A stretch of 64,000 nucleotides of DNA from positions 2,108,001-2,172,000 of the forward strand of contig NZ_CP107930.1 in the NCBI RefSeq assembly GCF_036021035.1. Direction: 5' to 3'. Below are positions 52,847 through 58,716 of this stretch, in pieces (positions within the stretch are counted from its first letter, which is position 1; every line of letters begins with the position of its first letter). The notes under the pieces were generated by a model. The model searched no databases and was not told where the DNA came from. It worked only from the letters and a program-made list of their open reading frames with translations. The DNA is from Kineococcus sp. NBC_00420. GTDB lineage: Bacteria; Actinomycetota; Actinomycetes; Actinomycetales; Kineococcaceae. A program made the position numbers and the translations under genes.

Positions 52847-54298
52847 TCACTGCAACGCGGCGGTGAGGCGCATGACGTTGTCGAGGTAGCGCTGGCGGAG
52901 GGGTCGCTGCGACCACTCCGCCGGCGTGAGTTCCCGGGACCGTTCGCGGTACTCCGAGACCTTCGCGGTGAGTTCCCCGACGAACGCGGGTTCCAGGCCG
53001 AGCAGCGACACCTCGTAGTCGAGGCTGAACGAGCGCATGTCCATGTTGCTGGACCCGATGACGGCCCGTTCGCCGTCCACGACCAGCACCTTGCTGTGCA
53101 GGACGGCGGGGAACGGCAGCATGTGGATCCGGACCCCGGCGTCGAGCAGGGTCGTGTAGTACGACCGCTGCGCGTGGTGGACCATGAACTGGTCCGCCTT
53201 CTCGGACACGAAGAGCTCGACGTCGACGCCCCGGTAGGCCGCGGTCGTGATGGCCTGCTCCAGACCGTCATCGGGGATGAAGTAGGGGCTGACGACGGAG
53301 ACCGAACGGGTCGCGGCGTGGATCAGCGCGGAGAACATCCGCAGGTTCGGTTCCGTCGGGAACCCCGGACCCGAGGGGACGACCTGGAAGGCACCCGTGG
53401 AGCCGCCGGACGGTTCCGGCCCCACGGCGTCCGCCTGCACCAGCGTCTCCCCCGTCTCGGCGAGCCAGTCCGTCGCGAACACCGACTCCAGCGACTGGAC
53501 GACGAACCCCGTGAGTTCCACGTTCAGGTCGACCCAGCGTCGCCCGGCGCGGACGTTCTTGCGGACGAGGTAGCCCGGGTCGATGAGGTTCTGGGAACCG
53601 ACGAAACCCGTCCGGCCGTCGACCACGACGAGCTTGCGGTGGTTGCGCAGGTCCGGGCGACGCCACCGGCCGCGCAACGGGTCGATCGGCATCATGCGGT
53701 GCCACTCGACCCCGTCGGCGGTGAGCCGCTCGTTCATGCGGGTGTGACCGGGGTACTTGCGCGACCCGAGGTGGTCGTAGAGGAAACGCACCGTCACCCC
53801 GCGCGCGACGGCGTCGCGCAGGGCGTCGAAGAAGGGTTCCGTCGTGGCGTCGAGGGCCGCGATGTAGAACTCGACGTGCACGCTGCGCTCGGCGGTCGCG
53901 ACGGCCGCCGCGAGCGCACCGACGAACTCCCCGTCCGGCAGCAGCCGCCGGTGGTCGCCGGAGACGCAGGGCAGCGAGGTGAGCCGGCGGTTCAGCCCGA
54001 GCAGCGAGGCGAGGTGCGCGTCGGCCACCAGACCCGGCGGCAGCGAGGGGAGGTTCTCGACGCGTTCGGCGATGACCTGGTTCACCTGCTGCTGCAGCCG
54101 GTGCCGGCGGCCCGTGACGTAGGGGCTGCCCAGCAGCAGGAACAGCGGCAGTCCGACGATCGGCAGGAAGAGGATGAGCAGCAGCCAGGCCGAGGAGGAA
54201 CCGGGTTTTCGGTTCTCGGGAACGGTTCCGACCGCCACCACCTTCACCACGTAATCGAGGACCACGAGGGCCTCGCTGAGGATCGCGATCAGGCTCAC
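52847..54298 (-). CDS. cls: Cardiolipin synthase (phospholipase D family)
   Basis: A 483-residue cardiolipin synthase: two N-terminal membrane helices (residues about 2-25 and 37-60), then two PLD domains, each with an HxKx4D motif: HRKLVVVD near residue 220 and HSKVLVVD near residue 400, both followed by GSxN. It joins phosphatidylglycerol molecules or uses CDP-diacylglycerol at the membrane. GTG 54298 overlaps the TetR stop (GTGA) and has GAGG five bases upstream; GTG 54304 is an alternative. It is co-directional with and downstream of the TetR gene. Confidence 0.93.
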   Translation of the reverse strand: MSLIAILSEALVVLDYVVKVVAVGTVPENRKPGSSSAWLLLILFLPIVGLPLFLLLGSPYVTGRRHRLQQQVNQVIAERVENLPSLPPGLVADAHLASLLGLNRRLTSLPCVSGDHRRLLPDGEFVGALAAAVATAERSVHVEFYIAALDATTEPFFDALRDAVARGVTVRFLYDHLGSRKYPGHTRMNERLTADGVEWHRMMPIDPLRGRWRRPDLRNHRKLVVVDGRTGFVGSQNLIDPGYLVRKNVRAGRRWVDLNVELTGFVVQSLESVFATDWLAETGETLVQADAVGPEPSGGSTGAFQVVPSGPGFPTEPNLRMFSALIHAATRSVSVVSPYFIPDDGLEQAITTAAYRGVDVELFVSEKADQFMVHHAQRSYYTTLLDAGVRIHMLPFPAVLHSKVLVVDGERAVIGSSNMDMRSFSLDYEVSLLGLEPAFVGELTAKVSEYRERSRELTPAEWSQRPLRQRYLDNVMRLTAALQ

Positions 54299-54891
54299 CG
54301 GCACCTCACCACCCGGGAGGCCCTGCGCGGCAGCAGGAAGCGTCGACCGATGTCCATCAGCATCCCGCGCAGGGCGTCGTCCGGGATGTCCCGGCACGTC
54401 TCGTCGCCCAGCGGGCCGACCATCCCGGTCAGGAAGAACACCGTCGCCACCCGCCGCTCGTCGTCGGCGTCCGGGCCGGCGAGCAGTTCGCGCAGTTCCT
54501 CACCGATCTCGCGCATGCGCGGGTGGTGCTCCTGCAGGTGCGCGAACACCGGGTCGACCGCCGCGACGACGTAGATCCGGCGGACCTCGACGATGAGGTC
54601 CACGAGACCCGTGAGGGCGGTCTCGACCTGCGCCCGACGACCCCGCCGGGCCCGGGCCGCCTCGACGATCTCGAGCACGCGGTCGAGGAAGGGCGCGACC
54701 ACCCCGACGACGAGTTCGTCCTTGGTCTTGTAGTGGTGGTACACCGCGGCCTTGGTGACGCCCATCTCGTCGGCGATCATCTGCAACGACGTGCCGCTGA
54801 TGCCGTGCTCCGCGAACAACCGCAGCGCCGCCTCGTGCAGGCGGGTCCGACCGGGCCCCGGCGGACGTCCGTCGCCGACCGTCGCCGTCAT
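54295..54891 (-). CDS. TetR family regulator, likely of the MMPL exporter
   Basis: A 198-residue TetR protein with the DNA-binding part HEAALRLFAEHGISGTSLQMIADEMGVTKAAVYHHYKTKDELV at about residues 18-62 (seen in pieces of the canonical pattern), followed by a helical ligand domain. ATG 54891 has GGGAG upstream. It is divergent from the MMPL gene (start 55124) with a palindrome in the gap, and co-transcribed with cls. The combination suggests a membrane-stress or lipid-responsive unit in which one repressor controls both lipid synthesis and an exporter (inference). Confidence 0.88.
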   Translation of the reverse strand: MTATVGDGRPPGPGRTRLHEAALRLFAEHGISGTSLQMIADEMGVTKAAVYHHYKTKDELVVGVVAPFLDRVLEIVEAARARRGRRAQVETALTGLVDLIVEVRRIYVVAAVDPVFAHLQEHHPRMREIGEELRELLAGPDADDERRVATVFFLTGMVGPLGDETCRDIPDDALRGMLMDIGRRFLLPRRASRVVRCR

Positions 54892-54985
54892 CGATCTCCC
54901 GCCCGTCACCGTGGACGTCCGGTGCCGTCCGGACGTCACTGTACCTGCGGCTACGACTTTCGACGGATGATCCACCCGTCGACAA

Positions 54986-55001
54986 CTAGCCGATCGACTA
55001 G
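54986..55001. promoter_or_regulatory. TetR-type palindrome between tetR and MMPL gene
   Basis: CTAG-CCGATCGA-CTAG is a 16-bp palindrome with one mismatched pair (14 of 16 symmetric positions). It lies 95 bp upstream of the TetR start and 122 bp upstream of the MMPL start. The rare CTAG tetranucleotide at both ends, unusual in this GC-rich DNA, supports a functional site. Confidence 0.5.
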
Positions 55002-55123
55002 GTGACGTCCCTTGGCCCGCCTCGCGCGGCCGGGGTACCGTCGAGCATCTCCACGCAGTAGAGCTACGTCGCCACCGGCGCCGACGGACCTCGTGTCGTC
55101 CCTCACGAAGGAGCCTTCCCCCG

Positions 55124-58100
55124 ATGGCAACCCTGCTGTACCGACTGGGCCGCTTCAGCGCCCGCCGCCACTGGCAGGTGCTCGCCGTCTGGGCCGTCCT
55201 GCTGGCCGTCCTCGCCGGCCTCGCCTACGGCGTCGACAAGACCGCCGCGACCGACACCAGCTTCTCGATCCCGGGGACGCAGGCCAGCGAGGGTCTGGAC
55301 CTCATCGGGCAGAAGTTCTCCTCCGGCGCCAACAACGCCACCGCGACGGTCGTCTTCCAGGCCCCCGCGGGGCAGACCCTCACCGGTGCCGACGCGGCCT
55401 CCGTCGAGGACCTGCTGGCGCAGCTGCGGGGTCTCGACGGGGTCGTCTCGGTGAGCGACCCGCTCGCGGCCGAGACCCCGATGCTCTCCGCCGACCGGAC
55501 GATCGCGTCCTCCACGGTGACCTTCGACGGGGTCGTCGGGGACATCACCAAGGAGCAGGCCGACGCGCTCGTCGCGGCGACGGACCACGACGCCGGCGAC
55601 GTCCGCGTCGAGATGACGTCGCAGGTCGTGACGAGCGAGGCCGGGCACGCGAGCGAGGCCATCGGCGTCGCCGTCGCGTTCCTCGTCCTCATCCTCACCT
55701 ACGGCGCCCTGGCCGCCGCGGGGGCGAACCTCCTCACGGCGGGCCTCGGGGTCGGCGCCGGCATCCTCGGCATCACGGCGCTGGGCAACGTCGTCTCGCT
55801 CTCGGCCACCACCCCGGCCCTGGCCGGCATGCTCGGGCTCGCGGTCGGCATCGACTACGCGCTGTTCGTCTTCGCCCGGACCCGCACCGAGCTGCGCCGC
55901 GGCGAGACCCTCGACCGCGCGATCGCCAAGGCCACCGGGACGGCCGGGACGGCCGTCGTGTTCGCCGGGACCACGGTCATCATCGCCCTGGCCGGTCTCG
56001 CGGTCGTCGACATCCCGTTCCTCACCCAGATGGGTCTGGCCGCCGCGGCCACGGTCTTCATCGCCGTCATCGTGGCCCTGACCGCCGTCCCGGCGTTCCT
56101 CAAGGTCCTCGGCCTGAAGGTGCTGCCCAAGAAGGAACGCCACCGCGACCCGGCCGGTCTGCGGGCCGCCGCGGAGAGCGACGACCACGCCGAGGCCGAC
56201 CTGGCCGGTCCGGGGCTGCTGGGCCGCTGGGCCCGCGGCGTCACCAACCACCCCGTCGTCTCGCTGCTCGTGGCCGTCGTGCTCGTCGGCGCCATCGCCA
56301 TCCCCGTCGCCTCGATGCGGACGGCGCTGCCCTCGGCCGAGAACGACGACCCGGCGAGCTCCTCCCGCCAGGCCTACGACCTGCTCGTCCAGGGCTTCGG
56401 GCCGGGCTCGCAGTCCAGCCTCCTCGTCCTGGTCAACGGCACGGACGCGACCGCCGTCGCCGGCGCGGCCACCGAGGTCACGAACGAGGTCAAGGGCCTC
56501 GCCGACGTCGCGGCCGTCGTGCCGGGCATCCCCTCCGCCGACGGCACCGCGCAGCTCATCACCGTCGTGCCGGGCAGCGGGCCGACGGACACCCGCACCA
56601 GCGACCTGGTCCGCAGCATCCGTTCCGCCACCGGCGGCACCACCGGGGCCGAGGTCCTCGTCACCGGTCAGACCGCGCTGGACATCGACGTCACCGACTC
56701 GCTCAACGACGCGCTGCCGAAGTACATCGCGCTGATCGTGGTCCTGGCGCTCCTCCTGCTGATCATGCTGTTCCGCTCGCTGGCGGTCCCGCTGCTGGCC
56801 ACCGTCGGGTTCCTGCTCTCGCTCGGTGCCTCGCTGGGGGCCGTCGTCGCGATCTACCAGTGGGGCTGGCTCTCCGACGTCTTCCAGGTCGCCCAGCCGG
56901 CACCGCTGCTGAGCTTCATGCCGGTGCTGGTCGTCGGGATCCTGTTCGGGCTCGCGATGGACTACCAGATGTTCATGGTCTCGGCGATCCACGAGCAGCA
57001 CGCCCACGGCCGCAGGCCCAAGGACGCCGTCCTCGCCGGGTTCCGCCGGTCGGCGCCCGTCGTCGTCGCGGCCGCGTTCATCATGTCCGGCGTCTTCGTC
57101 GGGTTCGCCACCAGCGGCGACCAGATCATCGGGTCGATCGGCATGGCCCTCACCGTGGGCGTCCTCGCCGACGCACTCGTCGTCCGCATGGTCATCATGC
57201 CCGCGGCGCTGACCCTGCTCGGCAACGCCGCCTGGTGGATGCCGCGGTGGATGCAGAAGCTCGTCCCGAACGTGGACGCCGAGGGTCGCAGCCTCGAGGC
57301 CCTCCTCAGCACCGAGGCCGCCGCCTCGAGCGGACCGGCTCCCGCGCAGGCGGTTCCGGTCCCCAGCCAGCGCGAGGAACGTCGCCGCCCGGTCGACCCG
57401 GAACTCGCGAGGACCCCGCACGGGATGCCGGCCGAGCAGCGGGTCGCGCGGATCCTGCAGGACCTCCCGCTCGGGATCGTCGGGCTGGTCACCGGGTCGG
57501 CGGGGAACCCGCTGGCCGGCGCCGTGCTCACCGTCACCGACCCCGCGGGACAGCAGGTCGTGCGGAGCACGTCCGACGAGGTCGGGTTCTACGAGCTGCC
57601 GCTGGAGGCGGGCGGCACGTTCGTCCTCATCGTCGCCGCGGCGGACGCGAAGCCCGCCGCCCACCTCGTCCCGGTCTCCGACCGCACGGTGCGCCACGAC
57701 GTCCGGCTCGTCGGCAACGCCGCCGTGCACGGCCTCGTGACGGGGGCCGACGGGAGGGACCCGGTGTGCGACGGCGTCCTCACCCTGCTCGACGTCCAGG
57801 GCCGGGTGGTGGCCTCCACCCGCACCGACGAGACGGGTCGCTACCGGTTGAGCGACCTGGTCGCCGGCACGTTCGTCCTGAGCGTGCTGAGCGAGTCGTT
57901 CCGTCCGGTGGCCCGCACGATCGACCTCGGGCCCGGCCAGGAGCTCGAGGAGGACGTGCGCCTCAGCCACGGTGGCCGCTTGATCGGCCAGGTGTCCGCC
58001 GCCAGCGACGGACGCGGGGTGCCCGAGGCCGCCGTGACGCTGGTGGACGGTGGCGGCTCCGTCGTCGAGCGCGCCACCACCGACCCCGAGGGGTCGTTCC

Positions 58101-58243
58101 ACTTCGACGACCTCTCCGCCGGCCACTACACGCTGACCGCGGCGGGCTACGCCCCCGTCGCGACCACCGTCGAGGTCGACGAGGGCACCCACCGCGACGT
58201 CGAGGTCGAGCTCGGCGAAGGAGCCACCCCCTCCGACTCGTGA
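55124..58243 (+). CDS. MMPL/RND exporter fused to three beta-sandwich repeats
   Basis: A 1039-residue protein. Residues 1-710 form an actinobacterial MMPL exporter: helix 1 near 15-36, then an extracytoplasmic domain, helices with AGMLGLAVGIDYALFVFARTR (MMPL signature, near 245), a second half from 350 and GILFGLAMDYQMFMVSAIHE near 610. Such proteins export lipids or drugs. After the last helix and a linker with NAAWWMPRWMQKLVP come three similar domains of about 85 residues (about 780-865, 866-948, 949-1035), each with GLVTG or GQV start, a GVTL-type strand, an S/RTDExGxY/F turn and an AGTFVL or AGHYTL strand. These resemble CarboxypepD_reg domains. ATG 55124 has AGGAG upstream. It is divergent from TetR-cls. 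Confidence 0.9.
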   Translation: MATLLYRLGRFSARRHWQVLAVWAVLLAVLAGLAYGVDKTAATDTSFSIPGTQASEGLDLIGQKFSSGANNATATVVFQAPAGQTLTGADAASVEDLLAQLRGLDGVVSVSDPLAAETPMLSADRTIASSTVTFDGVVGDITKEQADALVAATDHDAGDVRVEMTSQVVTSEAGHASEAIGVAVAFLVLILTYGALAAAGANLLTAGLGVGAGILGITALGNVVSLSATTPALAGMLGLAVGIDYALFVFARTRTELRRGETLDRAIAKATGTAGTAVVFAGTTVIIALAGLAVVDIPFLTQMGLAAAATVFIAVIVALTAVPAFLKVLGLKVLPKKERHRDPAGLRAAAESDDHAEADLAGPGLLGRWARGVTNHPVVSLLVAVVLVGAIAIPVASMRTALPSAENDDPASSSRQAYDLLVQGFGPGSQSSLLVLVNGTDATAVAGAATEVTNEVKGLADVAAVVPGIPSADGTAQLITVVPGSGPTDTRTSDLVRSIRSATGGTTGAEVLVTGQTALDIDVTDSLNDALPKYIALIVVLALLLLIMLFRSLAVPLLATVGFLLSLGASLGAVVAIYQWGWLSDVFQVAQPAPLLSFMPVLVVGILFGLAMDYQMFMVSAIHEQHAHGRRPKDAVLAGFRRSAPVVVAAAFIMSGVFVGFATSGDQIIGSIGMALTVGVLADALVVRMVIMPAALTLLGNAAWWMPRWMQKLVPNVDAEGRSLEALLSTEAAASSGPAPAQAVPVPSQREERRRPVDPELARTPHGMPAEQRVARILQDLPLGIVGLVTGSAGNPLAGAVLTVTDPAGQQVVRSTSDEVGFYELPLEAGGTFVLIVAAADAKPAAHLVPVSDRTVRHDVRLVGNAAVHGLVTGADGRDPVCDGVLTLLDVQGRVVASTRTDETGRYRLSDLVAGTFVLSVLSESFRPVARTIDLGPGQELEEDVRLSHGGRLIGQVSAASDGRGVPEAAVTLVDGGGSVVERATTDPEGSFHFDDLSAGHYTLTAAGYAPVATTVEVDEGTHRDVEVELGEGATPSDS

Positions 58244-58271
58244 TCTTGCGGGGATTCCCGGCAAGATCACG
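58239..58271 (+). terminator. Hairpin at the end of the MMPL gene
   Basis: Bases 58239-58253 pair with 58257-58271 at 14 of 15 positions around ATT. It begins two bases before the MMPL stop codon. It shares the GTGATCTTGC/GCAAGATCAC core with the palindrome family of this window. No T-tract. Confidence 0.6.
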
Positions 58272-58281
58272 GACAGCAGGG

Positions 58282-58321
58282 TGAAACCCAGGGTTGACAC
58301 AGTCGTCAACCCTGGGTTTCA
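58282..58321 (+). promoter_or_regulatory. 40-bp perfect palindrome overlapping TTGACA and a start codon
   Basis: TGAAACCCAGGGTTGAC (58282-58298) and its exact complement (58305-58321) flank ACAGTC. The left arm contains the -35-like TTGACA (58294-58299) and the right arm ends on the A of the ATG at 58321. It may be an operator, a terminator of MMPL, or a 5' hairpin. A leaderless start at GTG 58330 would fit a transcript beginning just after the palindrome. Confidence 0.6.
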
Positions 58322-58716
58322 TGGTCTGGGTGACGGACACCGAGGAGTGGCGCGAGGCCCTGCCGCACCGCGCCGGCGACTTCTCCCTGGGCGCCGTCTC
58401 GGCCCGCCTCGCCACCCACACGACCCCGGCCGTCGTGCGCGACGTGGTGGACGACCTCGGACGCGGCCTCCTCGCCCAGCTGTGGGGAGAGCCCGCCGAC
58501 CGCGACTGGCTCGGCGAGTGCGGGGGCCCGCTGGGGGCCGCACTGGTGCTGGCCGAGGTCGACGCCGCCGCGTCGGCGCTGCGCTCGCACGTGGCCGGTG
58601 CGCGCGCCTCGCTCCTCGCCGACCTGGTCGAGGACCACAGCCTGGTGGAACTCGCCGAACTCATCGGCGTCTCCCGGCAGGCCCTGCACAAGACCCTCAG
58701 GAACCGTGGACTGTGA
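58321..58716 (+). CDS. Small helix-turn-helix protein
   Basis: About 131 residues, acidic and helical. The C terminus is a clear helix-turn-helix: LVELAELIGVSRQALHKTLRNRG (short pieces at residues about 108-130). The rest has no recognised domain; a helical region with AALVLAEVDAAASALRSHV precedes the HTH. The start is ATG 58321, or GTG 58330 if the mRNA is leaderless; no ribosome site is visible before either, since the palindrome occupies that place. It overlaps or abuts the following membrane-protein gene. It may bind the palindrome at 58282-58321, which would make it autoregulated (inference). Confidence 0.7.
   Translation: MVWVTDTEEWREALPHRAGDFSLGAVSARLATHTTPAVVRDVVDDLGRGLLAQLWGEPADRDWLGECGGPLGAALVLAEVDAAASALRSHVAGARASLLADLVEDHSLVELAELIGVSRQALHKTLRNRGL

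Follow-up and report, generated by a model that had tools for sequence, protein, structure and literature searches.

Why does an MMPL-family exporter of Kineococcus sp. NBC_00420 end in three CarboxypepD_reg-like domains, on which side of the membrane do these domains lie, and what might they do there? The gene lies in a stretch of 64,000 nucleotides (the window), to which positions refer unless genome coordinates are given, and runs from an ATG at 55124, with AAGGAG just 5′ of it, to a stop codon at 58243 (1039 codons, no internal stops). The gene and its parts are:

55124..58243, + strand: MMPL-family exporter with a C-terminal tail of three CarboxypepD_reg domains, 1039 amino acids (ORF, Pfam profiles, orthologues)
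55124..57271, + strand: MMPL core, amino acids 1-716, 12 predicted transmembrane (TM) helices (Pfam, MmpL3 alignment, AlphaFold2)
55853..55858, + strand: Asp244-Tyr245, first MMPL Asp-Tyr pair, opposite IDY of MmpL3 (alignment)
56960..56965, + strand: Asp613-Tyr614, second MMPL Asp-Tyr pair, opposite TDY of MmpL3 (alignment)
57272..57469, + strand: linker, amino acids 717-782, polar, partly disordered, no TM helix, predicted to be cytosolic (hydropathy, AlphaFold2)
57476..57709 (genome 2165476-2165709), + strand: CarboxypepD_reg domain 1 (profile match, AlphaFold2)
57725..57964 (genome 2165725-2165964), + strand: CarboxypepD_reg domain 2 (profile match, AlphaFold2)
57983..58213 (genome 2165983-2166213), + strand: CarboxypepD_reg domain 3 (profile match, AlphaFold2)

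That exporter and tail form one gene, as a preliminary description of this DNA proposed, is confirmed by the unbroken reading frame and by orthologues in nine of ten congeners. Eight of these have whole orthologues with the same tail, 68-84% identical across the full length; the ninth copy, in G003, is split over two frames on a draft contig, and no orthologue of the tailed MMPL was found in congener G001. The tail evolves faster than the MMPL core (dN/dS 0.32-0.66 vs 0.19-0.38), and since these tail values indicate purifying selection, it is a maintained part of the coding sequence. The concern that the fusion might be an annotation error was put to rest: there is no stop between the parts, and the congener orthologues and the selection on the tail rule out sequencing or annotation error. 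A chance origin of the MMPL-tail combination is likewise excluded. Two paralogues elsewhere in the same genome (49% and 46% identity) lack the tail. In Kineococcus vitellinus, a second MMPL stands in tandem after the tailed one (L066:5769-7799; 70% over 630 amino acids, truncated by the contig end).

The core is a typical MMPL transporter. Pfam PF03176 matches it in two stretches (E 2.6e-84, 283.5 bits against a cut-off of 20.5), and it can be aligned with MmpL3 end to end (E 1e-46). With MmpL3 and other MMPL transporters it shares the 12 TM helices (residues 13-35, 176-198, 203-221, 226-258, 263-294, 298-333, 377-400, 523-550, 554-578, 599-627, 632-662, and 667-698) and the two Asp-Tyr pairs, D244-Y245 in TM4 and D613-Y614 in TM10, and a structure search with the full-length model returned MmpL3, MmpL4, and MmpL5. 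It is not the MmpL3 trehalose monomycolate exporter, as it scores 168.6 bits against an equivalog cut-off of 1400. By analogy with the family, the exporter would be driven by protons. The C-terminal region of MmpL3 is cytosolic but different in kind from the CarboxypepD_reg tail.

The three repeats that the preliminary description had recognized at the C terminus are genuine CarboxypepD_reg domains by both profile and fold. PF13620 matches three stretches (E 2.2e-31), each singly above the curated cut-off, and AlphaFold2 predicts three beta-sandwiches for residues 781-1034 with a mean pLDDT of 94.7. Domains in like positions are 48-55% identical between proteins, whereas unlike domains within one protein are 34-38% identical, which argues that the domain order has been kept; some residues are invariant in all three domains. 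The closest PDB structures by fold are pilin and adhesin domains of the CnaB type, from surface proteins. Although the tail matches the fold and profiles of CnaB, SdrD_B, and pilin domains, it differs from them in being very probably cytosolic and in having too few lysines (0-2 per three-domain tail) for isopeptide bonds, so that CnaB chemistry throughout the tail is ruled out; with only 0-1 cysteines, the tails should contain no disulfide.

On which side of the membrane does the tail lie? In the full-length AlphaFold2 model, 12 TM helices with both termini on the same side are followed by short helices, the disordered linker, and the tail; as this model was built from four full-length rows, has weak parts, and averages pLDDT 69.7, only its helix count is used here. 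Homology to MmpL3 would make the side of the termini the cytosol. An extra helix, suggested earlier as a way to place the tail outside, is not supported: there is none in the model, and no hydrophobic TM helix was found by hydropathy in the linkers of 103 tailed exporters (maximum 1.37). What sister MMPLs carry at this position is also informative. Eight loci among the nearest tail-less MMPLs, from other Actinomycetes families (L031, L034, L035, L036, L037, L038, L039, and L044), are longer at the C terminus by about 180-230 residues, and a profile of this extension matches ABC ATPases (best E 2.5e-7, FbpC). This domain has degenerate nucleotide-binding motifs, including an altered Walker A, and occupies the same position as the CarboxypepD_reg tail. 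ABC ATPases are cytosolic, and the C termini of DHA2, FUSC, and MMPL exporters, all of which can bear the tail, are held to be cytosolic. Because the 12 helices keep the termini together, the linker has no helix, sister proteins have an ATPase-like domain in this place, lysine and cysteine are scarce, and the same tail occurs on these three kinds of exporter, we consider the tail very probably cytosolic, as judged from models and comparisons. The fusion of MMPL and pseudo-ATPase in other Actinomycetes families is worth a separate study.

Is the tail a peculiarity of MMPL proteins? A survey of carriers, as the preliminary description had advised, gives a negative answer, since most carriers are MFS exporters (93 of 113 distinct tails); those examined resemble DHA2 exporters, for example EmrB, OtrB, and Tcr3. 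Three DHA2-type MFS exporters of the same genome (at 4461673, 2943649, and 288625) bear a homologous three-domain module, 36-50% identical, on a membrane fold unrelated to MMPL. Tail matches at E 1e-15 or better, weaker ones including partial or unrelated CarboxypepD_reg proteins, are present in 77 of 395 sampled genomes of the class, and among 84,980 species genomes searched with two peptide patterns, convincing relatives are confined to Actinomycetota. The carriers comprise two MFS types, FUSC (a three-domain tail in Nocardia miyunensis, L090:2547-5762), and two MMPL types, the second of which (L169) is unrelated to the first; the triple-domain tail also occurs as a free protein (L087, L091, and L092). 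On some MFS-b exporters (L177, L179, L180, L181, L182, and L186), the matches span about two domains only, which suggests that the length of the module varies. In a quick, midpoint-rooted tree of tails with several long branches, those of the Kineococcus MMPLs form one clade (SH-aLRT 96) amid MFS tails, and those of FUSC and the second MMPL are placed elsewhere. As the Kineococcus clade nests among MFS tails, the MMPL probably captured its tail from a pre-existing module, and as the MMPL, FUSC, and second-MMPL tails stand apart, the module appears to have moved between pump folds several times.

A possible partner emerges from gene order. Many tailed MFS genes are followed by one that encodes a protein of ~270 amino acids, in which a single CarboxypepD_reg domain is combined with a YceI (lipocalin-like) domain; no evident signal peptide was found in the alignment of these proteins. 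In the class sample, 35 of the 37 strongest CarboxypepD_reg-YceI genes immediately follow a tailed exporter gene on the same strand, the matches being separated by -25 to 378 bases, with a 4-base overlap of stop and start in several loci. At one of these in the same genome (G000:C1:4460747-4462449; L046:2245-6224), a tailed DHA2 exporter and the CarboxypepD_reg-YceI gene share 4 bases, and a MarR-type gene lies upstream. Two Gordonia loci have in a row a free triple CarboxypepD_reg protein, a CarboxypepD_reg-YceI protein, and a tailed MFS exporter (L091:792-5138 and L092:4851-9281). The triple tail is present in 39 of 42 genomes with a CarboxypepD_reg-YceI gene vs 14 of 353 without, kinship being ignored in these counts; gene adjacency carries more weight. 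Each of the 11 Kineococcus genomes has exactly one such gene, and it is beside a tailed MFS gene, not beside the MMPL. In the neighborhoods inspected, neither the MMPL of the window nor its congener copies had an adjacent YceI gene, so for the MMPL the partner would have to act from a distant gene. Many tailed MFS genes also have no YceI neighbor. The CarboxypepD_reg domain of the YceI protein is 30-34% identical to each of tail domains 1-3, none being closer, which does not support its derivation from tail domain 1.

How can these observations be combined? The reading we place first, if at somewhat short of even probability, is that the captured tail of the MMPL exporter serves as a cytosolic docking platform for a carrier. 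A proton-driven, TetR-controlled MMPL pump would have gained at its C terminus a module that already existed in actinobacteria, namely three prealbumin-like (CarboxypepD_reg) beta-sandwiches in a set order. Hanging in the cytosol from a flexible linker, this module would bring the substrate to the pump by drawing in a cytosolic partner. The best candidate for that partner would be the CarboxypepD_reg-YceI protein of the same genome (L099:572-1435), which is leaderless and lipocalin-like and is encoded next to a sister exporter, a tailed MFS protein; its cargo may be hydrophobic or prenylated molecules. Docking, hand-over, and the identities of substrate and partner are all inferred. The earlier suggestion that the tail binds cargo or a partner protein thus survives as an inference, from a module common to unrelated pumps and from the adjacent YceI genes. 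An ordered module on unrelated pumps, its cytosolic side, the YceI adjacency, the Gordonia gene rows, and the precedents of AcpM and BcnA/BcnB suggest a docking module for export pumps; against docking count the missing YceI neighbor of the MMPL, the lack of a preferred tail domain, the unpaired MFS genes, the fast evolution of the tail, and the low-pLDDT parts of the model. The extension to a general actinobacterial hand-over, in which a triple CarboxypepD_reg plug on MFS, MMPL, and FUSC pumps recruits CarboxypepD_reg-YceI proteins that deliver hydrophobic compounds, is more doubtful.

It is also possible, although rather unlikely, that the tail works in the cytosol to assemble or stabilize pumps, joining protomers (as in MMPL trimers) or different tailed pumps, with no carrier involved. 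This would account for tailed pumps that have no YceI neighbor and would suit both the presence of the same tail on MMPL and MFS pumps of one genome and a fold that elsewhere, as in pilins, forms rods and assemblies, but it leaves unexplained why 35 of 37 CarboxypepD_reg-YceI genes follow tailed pumps and why free triple-domain proteins exist. These free proteins and the tailed YceI point to protein contacts, and they also make it quite improbable that the tail is a sensor or gate, as the Pfam name might suggest, that binds a substrate or signal directly and regulates transport, even though residues are invariant across all three domains and most carriers are akin to drug exporters.

If the tail were instead a useless remnant that recombination between pump genes left behind and that the cell tolerates, its repeated transfers in the tree, its faster evolution than the core, and the absence of such an MMPL from G001 would be readily understood; purifying selection, intact copies in eight congeners, the kept domain order, and repeated independent retention make this very improbable. 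Hardest to credit is a tail outside the membrane that contacts the cell wall like most CarboxypepD_reg and CnaB domains. Its nearest PDB folds are indeed surface pilins and adhesins, but the 12 TM helices that bring the termini to one side, the lack of a further helix, a degenerate ATPase at the same position in relatives, too little lysine and cysteine for isopeptide bonds throughout or a disulfide, and partner YceI proteins without evident signal peptides all speak against it.

For the docking platform, two known systems offer partial parallels. MmpL4 and MmpL5 with AcpM, among the structures found in the PDB search, are likewise MMPL exporters with a cytosolic partner; AcpM, however, is a separate acyl carrier protein, whereas the presumed docking part in Kineococcus is fused to the pump. 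The YceI-type lipocalins BcnA and BcnB, which have a domain like that of the presumed partner, are reported to capture antibiotics, and their crystal structures contain octaprenyl pyrophosphate (PMC5350466). The protein in that study is released from the cell, unlike the presumed partner, in which no signal peptide is evident and a CarboxypepD_reg domain is joined to the YceI domain. In Streptomyces sp. Go-475, a carboxypeptidase regulatory-like domain has been reported at the N terminus of a terpene synthase (PMC6007079), possibly another tie of such domains to isoprenoids.

CarboxypepD_reg, MMPL, MFS, and YceI are each established families, and public annotation may list such multidomain proteins singly and without comment. 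We found no published description of the shared exporter tail or its pairing with YceI proteins, in a search that reached few subscription journals. Little is known of how exporters gather hydrophobic substrates from the cytosol; a tail that recurs on unrelated pumps and is paired through gene order with a lipocalin-like protein is a directly testable candidate for such delivery, in the Actinomycetia, a group rich in antibiotic export.

Finally, the surroundings of the gene point to its regulation:

54295..54975, - strand: TetR-family regulator, divergent, beside all nine congener copies
54980..55007, no strand: palindrome between TetR and exporter genes, candidate operator
58239..58271, no strand: inverted repeat at the stop codon, 16-nucleotide arms, 94%, candidate terminator

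Control of the exporter by the divergent TetR-family regulator is probable. Further downstream, a perfect 17-nucleotide inverted repeat with a 6-nucleotide loop (58282-58321) may be a terminator or the operator of a gene for a small HTH-like protein (frame 58294-58716); the possible start codon (ATG) of that gene lies at the end of the repeat's right arm.
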